Source of the DNA: Amphiura filiformis
Lineage: Eukaryota; Echinodermata; Ophiuroidea; Amphilepidida; Amphiuridae
Reading direction: 5' to 3'
DNA length: 64,000 bases
Assembly (NCBI RefSeq): GCF_039555335.1
Contig: NC_092647.1
Span: forward strand, 6,648,608-6,712,607
Shown here: positions 41,301 to 64,000 of the stretch, piece by piece
Layout: the number at the start of each line of letters is the position of its first letter
Position numbering within the stretch: position 1 is the first letter of the stretch
Notes under the pieces: model-generated
Databases searched by the model: none
What the model was told of the DNA's origin: nothing
What the model saw: only the letters and a program-made list of their open reading frames with translations
Made by a program: the position numbers and the translations under genes

Positions 41301-44300
41301 GTTGTCTCAAATAGTCGAATCCGAGCATAATAGGAACGCCAAAAAAGAATATATTTCACCAAGTGGAAATTTTACGTACTTGCTATATCAAGCCTGTATG
41401 ACAAAAGCTCGACCGGCAGTGATTGGTTCATTATGCTATTAATGAATATTCATAATGCTATTGGGAGGCTGAAGTAAATAAATAGAATAAAATAATATTT
41501 AAATAGTGATATTTACTTATGAAAATAAAAACACAATAAATAAAATAAGAAAATGCAAAATTAATATGATAAAAAATAAACAAAAAATAAAACTGAAACA
41601 AATAAATTTTATTGAAATGAATTTTATTGAAATAGATGAAATAAAAAAATTATGAAAAATCCAAATGAAATACCTTGAGGGGGTCCAGGGGTTGGGTTTG
41701 GGGCATAAGCATAGTAATGTCATAAGAATTGTTCACCTGACCTTTAAAAAAAAATTTGACCCCAAGGTGTTTTTTTATATTTTAAGTAAGTTAAGGGGCC
41801 ATCAATGACCCCTTGTTTTAACCTGTCATCCGAGGTAAAATTACTAAAAACTTGTATGGGCATGAAACTTGGTGGGTACAGTCAACATATAGAGTCAAAT
41901 TTTTGGAAGGTCATTTCAGGGTCTTCCGAGGTCACCCGGGGTCATGTGAGGTCAAATTTTTGGAAGGTCATTTTGGGGGTCATCCGAGGTCACCCAGGGT
42001 CATCTGAGGTCAAATGACTAAAAACTGTCGTATGGGCATGAAACTTAGTGGGTACAGTCAACATTTAGAGTCAAATTATTGGAAGGTTATTTCGGGGTCA
42101 TCTGAGGTCACTTAGGGGTCATCTGAGGTCAAATTACAAAAACTCATATGGGCATGAAACTTCGTGAGTACAGTCAACATTTGGAGTCAAATTTTTGGAA
42201 GCGCATTTCAATGTCATCCAAGGTCACCCAGGGGTCATCTGAGATCAAATTACTAAAAACTGTCGCATTGGCATGAAACTTGGTGGGTAGTCAACATTTA
42301 TAGTCAAATTTTTGGAAGGTCCTTTAGGGGCCATCCGAGGTCACCCAGGGATCATCTGAGGTCAAATTTTTGGAAGGTCATTTTGGGGTCATTCGAGGTC
42401 ACAGGAGTCATCTGAGGTCAAATTACTAAAAACTTGCATGGCATAAAACTTGGTGGGTACAGTCAACATTTTAGAGTCAGGTTTTTGGAAGGTCATTTCG
42501 GGGTCATTTAAGGTCACCCAGGGGTCATCTGAGGTCAAATTACTAAAAACTGTCATATGGGCATGGAACTTGGTGGGTACAGTCAACATTTAGAGTCAAG
42601 TTTTTGGAAGGTCATTTCAGTGTTATCTGAGGTCACCCAGGGGTCATCTGAGGTCAAATTACTAAAACTATCATATGGGCATGGAACTTGGTGGGTACAG
42701 TCAACATTTAGAGTCAAGTTTTTGGAAGGTCATTTCAGGGTCATCCAAGGTCACCCAGGATCATCTGAGGTCAACTTAATAAAAACTGTCGCATTGGCAT
42801 GAAACTTGGTGGGTACAGTCAACATTTATAGTCAAATTTTTGGAAGGTCCTTTCGGGGCCATCCAAGGTCACTCAGGGATCATCTGAGGTCAAATTTTTG
42901 GAAGGTCATTTTGGGGTCATCCTAGGTCACCTAGGGGTCATCTGAGGTCAAATTACTAAAACTGTCGCATGGGCATAAAACTTGGTGGGTACAGTCAACA
43001 TATAGAGTCAGGTTTTTGGAAGGTCATTACGGGGTCATTTCAGGTCACCGGGGGTCATCTGAGGTCAAATGACTAAAAACTGTCGTATGGGCATGGAACT
43101 TGGTGGGTACAGTCAACATATAGAGTCAGGTTTTGGAAGGTCATTACGGGGTCATTTCAGGTCACACGGGGTCATCTGAGGTCAAATGACTAAAACTGTC
43201 GTATGGGCATGGAACTTGGTGGGTACAGTCAACATTTAGAGTCAAGTATTTGGAAGGTCATTTCAGTGTTATCTGAGGTCACCCAGGGGTCATCTGAGGT
43301 CAAATTACTATCACTTTCACTGTCCCCAAAAAGCAAAGAGCCACAGCGCCATTGGTGCTCTTGTTATCAACCTTTTAACCTTTTCATGCAAGCGCCCTAT
43401 TGCAGTGATTATGGTCTGCAGTTATGCAGTGACCATTAGACATTCAGTGGTTGGAATTAATTGCTGGGTTTTAAAAAAAAGGTGTAAAACACCACCTTTA
43501 CTTGGGAGTAACATACAACTTTTCTATAAAATTCAGACCTTTAAAAAAACCTCTGGACCCCTTTATAAATTAGGCTTTTCAAGTGTGTCCAGCAACAAAT
43601 ATTTGGACCCAAAGATCTTGAGGCCAGCGCTACCTTTAATAATGCACATGCACCTAGGCAGTGTATTCAGATTTGGCAATGAATTCATGTAAAAAACTGT
43701 AAAAGTGTTGAAACATATTTCTGACCATGTGCCATAATTCTACATGTACCTGCAAAATAAGAACACAACAGAGAATTATGAAATGGTGAACTAGTTTCTC
43801 TATTGTGAAAATACATTGCACGTTTGGTATACATTTTGATCTATTTTTGTAGGCTTGGACAAGATGATGGTCGGTCCCGATGGTGATGTGACAGTAACCA
43901 ACGATGGAGCCACTATCCTGAACCTGATGGATGTTGACCACCAGATAGCTAAGCTCATGGTGCAACTGTCAAAATCACAAGATGATGAAATTGGCGATGG
44001 TACCACTGGTGTTGTAGGTAATATCAAAATCCATTTTTTTTACCCAAACATCCCCCGTCTAGTTGATAGCCCAACATGATTTTAATTTCCTCATTCTTAA
44101 TGTAATCCTGAGATAGGCATTTATCATAAACTACAATATCCTCAGTGACGATATGATGACGAGCCTGATAGGTGATATCTGCCTGCCCTGGTTGTCTCTG
44201 TCCAGACATGTTTTATGTCAGGACTGGTTATGATGATCGGAGTGGGTGATGTCGCTGTAAGTGTGAAGCACAAACACGAGGCATTTGTCTGAGAGGAACA

Positions 44301-64000: not shown

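Follow-up and report, generated by a model that had tools for sequence, protein, structure and literature searches.

A U15-type snoRNA family of at least twelve copies in the introns of CCT5 in Amphiura filiformis

How does a single protein-coding gene come to carry a dozen copies of what appears to be one small nucleolar RNA, and are these copies maintained as RNAs or carried along as repeats? We address this question in a window of 64,000 nucleotides from the ophiuroid Amphiura filiformis (contig NC_092647.1, positions 6,648,608 to 6,712,607), for which a sequence-only reading had proposed that twelve U15 (SNORD15) units lie in introns of CCT5. We find that a multi-copy, selectively maintained U15-type snoRNA family hosted by CCT5 is the best explanation of this locus, and a likely one.

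All twelve of the proposed units are recovered on the plus strand, each 155-160 nt long when counted from the U of the terminal stem, and the Rfam SNORD15 model RF00067 aligns to every one of them over its full length (model 1-146), with scores of 47.2-61.3 bits and E-values of 2.1e-7 to 6e-11. These are 12 of the 20 matches returned by Rfam over 43500-64000 at E≤5, in an output that kept only the best match per clan; SNORD15 is the best in its clan for 12/12. None of the units reaches the gathering score of 75 bits, which is the curators' cut-off and not a biological feature, and the curated cut-offs return nothing across the window; we therefore call the units U15-type. The SNORD15 assignment thus holds at the level of significant, full-length matches and fails at the curated cut-off. 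A repeat finder gives the same 12 places (family D2), and three unit signatures, namely box C with D′ guide, D guide with D box, and D-guide end with D box, are each found at 12 plus-strand places and at none on the minus strand of the 64 kb. The further proposals that every unit is in the sense of CCT5 and that the first 44 kb is free of them are likewise borne out, the latter by the lack of SNORD15 among the 14 Rfam matches (E≤1) over 1-44100. Separately, sub-threshold microRNA matches at 47087, 55873 and 56794 sit on self-complementary stretches.

The units share a common anatomy. From the 5′ end, the stem strand UCCUC is followed by A, box C (GUGAYGA), the D′ guide GAUGACGAG, C and box D′ (CUGA); a middle part of ≈95 nt, which folds into an internal stem-loop, leads to an RUGAAG motif; and the D guide ACGAGGCAUUUG, U, box D (CUGA) and the stem strand GAGGA complete the 3′ side. 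The earlier description of a terminal stem with boxes C, D′, C′ and D stands for the stem, which joins C and D and is invariant in 12/12 units, and for boxes D and D′, both CUGA in 12/12; it is weaker for box C, which is GUGACGA in 9/12 and GUGAUGA in 3/12 (i5b, i8b and i8c) against a consensus of RUGAUGA, and for C′, since the RUGAAG motif found near the D guide in 12/12 is a possible C′ that matches its consensus weakly. The variable base of box C lies in a CpG, such that decay from a GUGACGA ancestor may account for the difference. RNAalifold places 51 pairs in the internal stem, 0/51 of which change on both sides, and folding of one copy gives a z of -2.12, with 4/200 shuffles folding as well; with folding energy as its support and no compensatory change in the 51 pairs, the internal stem is plausible, not proven.

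CCT5 exons were found by tblastn with a human sequence and were then set by splice sites; joined, exons 1-8 encode 393 codons with no stop, the seven complete introns all have GT-AG ends, and the intron 8 donor is GT. For residues 1-176 the top matches are CCT epsilon chains (E 1e-87), ahead of thermosomes, whose best E-value is 7e-42, and of CCT alpha, at 5.5e-36. This frame and this match support CCT5 as the host, and the spliced exon frame places the units in the same four introns that had been named, with one unit in intron 3, seven in intron 5, one in intron 7 and three in intron 8; the signature scan finds no units in introns 1, 2, 4 and 6. Both intron 8 and the exons that follow exon 8 continue past the window end, so twelve is a minimum, and the proposed expansion is upheld as at least 12 full-length U15-type units in four introns. 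The last copy lies upstream of the 3′ splice site by 329 nt in intron 3, 353 nt in intron 5 and 521 nt in intron 7. Coordinates are collected in Table 1.

Table 1. Coordinates, in window numbering, of CCT5, the U15-type units and the marks of duplication
Feature	Position	Strand	RF00067 match start	Remarks
CCT5 host gene, exons 1-8	35279..61374	+		later exons beyond window
CCT5 exons 1-4	35279-35383, 38966-39026, 43853-44017, 44627-44825	+		
CCT5 exons 5-8	48323-48515, 56607-56756, 57649-57768, 61189-61374	+		
i3a	44139..44297	+	44140	intron 3; 49.5 bits, E 5.6e-8; both guides intact
i5a	49206..49364	+	49207	intron 5; 47.5 bits; D guide has one A for G (mismatch)
i5b	50079..50238	+	50080	intron 5; 50.6 bits; box C GUGAUGA; both guides intact
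i5c	51051..51208	+	51052	intron 5; 48.8 bits; both guides intact
i5d	51930..52088	+	51931	intron 5; 48.1 bits; both guides intact; recent duplicate of i5b
i5e	52900..53058	+	52901	intron 5; 47.2 bits; both guides intact; recent duplicate of i5c
i5f	54143..54301	+	54144	intron 5; 50.9 bits; mosaic: i5d-like 5′ flank, different 3′ part of unit
i5g	56095..56253	+	56096	intron 5; 52.6 bits; 353 nt upstream of 3′ splice site
i7a	60509..60667	+	60510	intron 7; 52.5 bits; just downstream of non-LTR retrotransposon tail
i8a	61744..61902	+	61745	intron 8; 51.4 bits
i8b	62734..62892	+	62735	intron 8; 52.3 bits; box C GUGAUGA; flanks common to i8a
i8c	63525..63679	+	63526	intron 8; 61.3 bits, E 6e-11; box C GUGAUGA; short internal deletion
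Recent tandem duplication	50024..53246	+		50024-51396 (i5b+i5c) repeated as 51877-53246 (i5d+i5e)
Decayed exon 6 start	49799..49853	+		downstream of i5a; acceptor AG kept; 49691-49853 resembles 56474-56661, across 3′ splice site
Decayed exon 6 start	50655..50688	+		downstream of i5b; acceptor AG lost; 50531-50688 resembles 56474-56640
Decayed exon 6 start	52508..52534	+		downstream of i5d; acceptor AG lost; 52381-52534 resembles 56474-56633

Several other features lie in and around the gene. On the minus strand, 34260-34571 is an open frame matching SPMIP11 (sperm microtubule inner protein 11; E 4.2e-13); it lies ≈0.7 kb from where CCT5 starts and probably represents exon 1 of a divergent neighbour gene. 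An array of degenerate, GGTCA-rich repeats of ≈118 nt fills 41850-43310 in intron 2, and a non-LTR retrotransposon with broken frames (RVT_1, E 1.4e-34) and an AAATC-type tail occupies 57916-60460 in intron 7, ending ≈45 nt upstream of i7a. Two inverted repeat arms (22574-23525 and 28296-29233), 92-99% complementary and ≈4.8-6.1 kb apart, may mark a mobile element or else a segment recently duplicated in inverted orientation.

The guides were paired against a typed 46-nt stretch of 28S rRNA, and both of the neighbouring target sites that had been proposed are recovered: the D′ guide is complementary to CUCGUCAUC over 9 nt in 12/12 units, and the D guide to CAAAUGCCUC, perfectly over 12 nt in 11/12 and with its fifth nucleotide on the last A, the sole exception being i5a with one mismatch. 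The box+5 rule places the methylated nucleotide and predicts two 2′-O-methyl sites seven nucleotides apart, one on the last A of CCAAAUGCC and the other on the G of CCUCG. The two guide duplexes overlap on the rRNA, which suggests that they could not both form fully at once. A 20-nt core of the 28S stretch holds both paired stretches and is present in L002 and L003, which Rfam confirms as eukaryotic LSU rRNA; these are the two so identified among five Rfam-scanned loci, of eight loci in genome contigs that match the 20-base form of the target pattern. The 22-base form gives 0 matches in viral contigs, and a pattern combining both guides gives 0 in viral and 0 in genome contigs. As an observation in its own right, another locus, L001, carries at 431-4315 a 1294-aa ORF that looks reverse-transcriptase-like by eye and ends shortly before the 28S sequence TAGCCAAATGCC at 4792-4811, a junction that we read as a putative R2-like element; we take the U15 target to adjoin the R2 insertion site in 28S. 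L001 is labelled as a tubeworm endosymbiont bacterium and, given such an element, is probably host DNA; L006 and L008, from the same sample, show similar junctions.

The intron 5 copies bear marks of their origin. Their flanks are common to the units, as i5a and i5b align over ≈0.94 kb, and the decayed junctions of intron 5 with exon 6 found after i5a, i5b and i5d, whose exon 6 part measures 55 nt at most, indicate that a DNA segment including part of the exon was duplicated. The two-unit segment i5b+i5c recurs as i5d+i5e with a flank identity of 1022/1046 (97.7%), and the upstream flank of i5d is repeated before i5f, also at 97.7%, with homology stopping at the end of the unit; i5f and i5d differ at columns 67, 102, 105, 125 and 128. 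In intron 8, the flanks of i8a and i8b are 83.8% identical. A 364-bp tandem duplication in intron 4 (44891-45612, 99% identity), which holds no snoRNA, shows local duplication of the kind seen in intron 5. A candidate scheme in which pseudo-exons give each intron-5 copy an intron of its own was rejected, as only 3/7 copies have one and 2/3 acceptors are lost.

Identity of 97.7% is a level that can be reached between haplotypes of heterozygous invertebrates, and part of the copy number could then be an assembly artefact in which intron 5 strings together two haplotypes head to tail, with the i5b+i5c/i5d+i5e and i5d/i5f segments as the joined stretches. We regard this as quite improbable, since no copies but i5d, i5e and i5f could be accounted for in this way, the remaining nine being distinct in flank or sequence, and since i5f combines an i5d-like upstream flank with a different downstream side.

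Of 42 alignments between introns, 34 end no more than 10 nt from the unit at either side, six extend 12-20 nt beyond it, and the remaining two reach further, i5a/i7a by ≈50 nt downstream and i5g/i8a by ≈100 nt upstream at low identity. Such tight ends, together with the position of i7a ≈45 nt after the tail of a non-LTR element, are what retroposed, snoRT-like snoRNA elements landing repeatedly in one gene would leave. However, no flank word shared above chance is found in 12/12 units, as judged against 2000 random placements for target-site duplications, no poly-A tail is seen in the 3′ flanks, all twelve copies share a strand and a gene, and the intron-5 copies have intron and exon flanks in common. 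Retroposition is thus not supported and seems to us very remote, and a transposon, which the sequence-only reading had named as one case that would overturn it, has little support in the window. On the sequence evidence, the copies spread within CCT5 by local DNA duplication.

Whether the copies are maintained is addressed by comparing each unit with its own flanks. Global alignment of 100-nt flanks proved uninformative, with shuffled flanks scoring about equally, and we turned to the 13 BLAST alignments of 260 nt or more that contain a whole unit on both sides; shorter ones were dropped, so only pairs with an appreciable alignable flank are counted. In 10/13 of these alignments, which are not independent because copies are common to several, the flanks are 66-78% identical, a value overstated by counting only alignable flank, against 94-97% for the snoRNA (p 4e-5 to 1e-11). 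The eleventh, i8a/i8b, gives 84% and 94% (p 7e-4). The two most recent duplications show no significant difference between snoRNA and flank divergence (p 0.06 and 0.56); for i5d/i5f, one of the two, the snoRNA is slightly more divergent than the flank. Within the units, variation avoids the functional columns: 2/46 columns vary in stems, boxes and guides, versus 29/114 elsewhere (Fisher p 0.0016).

Sequence has also moved between copies, or so the variants suggest. In a four-gamete test, 21/45 informative site pairs are incompatible, and one conflict crosses introns, with changes at columns 47-48 shared by i5c, i5e and i7a versus changes at columns 124-125 shared by i5a, i7a and i8c. Exchange between copies, also across introns, is the simplest reading of these patterns, to which recurrent CpG changes may add. 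The same exchange is claimed by an account of the array as passive tandem repeats, in which unequal crossing-over multiplied one active U15 gene, or a few, and left a majority of unexpressed passengers, as yet undecayed or homogenised by conversion; the two recent duplications and the guide mismatch in i5a would fit as well. This account is unlikely in our judgement, as guides and boxes are kept while flanks have diverged in most alignments, functional columns are avoided by variation, and the confinement of between-intron similarity to the unit is predicted by selection on the unit.

We favour a selectively maintained family, which would work as follows. U15-type double-guide box C/D snoRNAs would be transcribed within the CCT5 pre-mRNA and released from its introns by trimming; once fibrillarin has joined, the D guide would direct 2′-O-methylation to the last A of its 28S target, and the D′ guide to the G of CCUCG seven nucleotides downstream of that A. 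Intron 5 would have grown by tandem units made of snoRNA, intron and a piece of exon 6, and a later duplication would have taken in two units at once (≈1.37 kb aligned, offset 1.85 kb). Copies would also have undergone unequal exchange or conversion, across introns too, while selection preserved guides and boxes in nearly all of them; the simplest reason would be that extra U15 from a single housekeeping transcript is beneficial or at least tolerated. Several observations weigh against this reading: gene conversion could explain part of the similarity of the copies; seven copies in one intron sit poorly with the mainly one-per-intron pattern of animals given in the excerpted part of PMC11028025; and to these are added the sub-cut-off Rfam scores of 12/12 units, GUGACGA in 9/12, the D-guide mismatch of i5a and the lack of compensatory change in 51 pairs.

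A bolder form of this proposal, which we offer as a tentative possibility of rather low probability, would make CCT5 a small "snoRNA rDNA", that is, a dosage-selected U15 array in concerted evolution through between-intron exchange, with a polycistronic intron 5 precursor. Intron 5 would then yield several snoRNPs or snoRNA-ended long RNAs instead of one snoRNA. As excerpted, PMC11028025 describes animal introns as mostly holding one snoRNA and reports that an intron with two of them can be a source of snoRNA-ended long RNAs.

The locus offers a clear case of snoRNA family growth, in which exon-6 fragments, flanks, recent duplications and shuffled variants can all be read at one place, and it offers a test of whether many snoRNPs can come from one intron and whether U15 dosage is under selection. 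Since all twelve copies fall below the Rfam cut-off, annotation that relies on it would miss them. The new points are the CCT5 host, the copy number and the seven copies in one intron; the kind of RNA is known. Among the literature matches listed, from which subscription papers are mostly absent, no title describes U15 in CCT5 or a U15 array of this size, and none of the titles on snoRNA, CCT5 and host gene is a snoRNA study.

Among known systems, vertebrate U15 (SNORD15A/B; GGgCD48 in chicken) is the nearest, and it resembles the present family in length, in its 3′ guide to the same 28S A and in having several intronic copies in one housekeeping gene. It differs in its RPS3 host, whereas here the host of all twelve units is CCT5, with at least 12 copies, seven in one intron and GUGACGA in nine. 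According to the excerpt of PMC2653536, chicken U15 (GGgCD48) is 158 nt long and has three isoforms in introns 4, 5 and 6 of RPS3, so that multiplication of U15 within a gene is already known, and GGgCD49 is a U15-type RNA outside RPS3, so that the RPS3 host is not a defining trait of U15. The parallel with human U15 drawn by the sequence-only reading is firm for the A site of the D guide only, as the second site is listed for plant and yeast: human U15a is given Am3764, with no Gm partner site, and plant AtU15 both Am2271 and Gm2278 in the excerpted part of PMC3511168, and in yeast snR13 and snR75 are assigned Am2281 and Gm2288 in that of PMC5199042. AtU15 and the yeast pair (Rfam clan CL00045) thus share with the CCT5 units Am and Gm sites seven nucleotides apart, but yeast serves the two sites with two RNAs and a single double-guide RNA would do so here. 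CCT subunit genes are also known as hosts, since the excerpt of PMC2653536 places H/ACA RNAs in the introns of chicken TCP1 and CCT6A; these resemble CCT5 in being CCT genes with intronic snoRNAs and differ in the class of RNA and in having one isoform each. Host movement and within-gene duplication are both described as general features of snoRNAs in the excerpted sources: old snoRNAs still moving between hosts is the theme of PMC3511168, and cis-duplication within a gene is a main route of snoRNA growth in PMC2653536.
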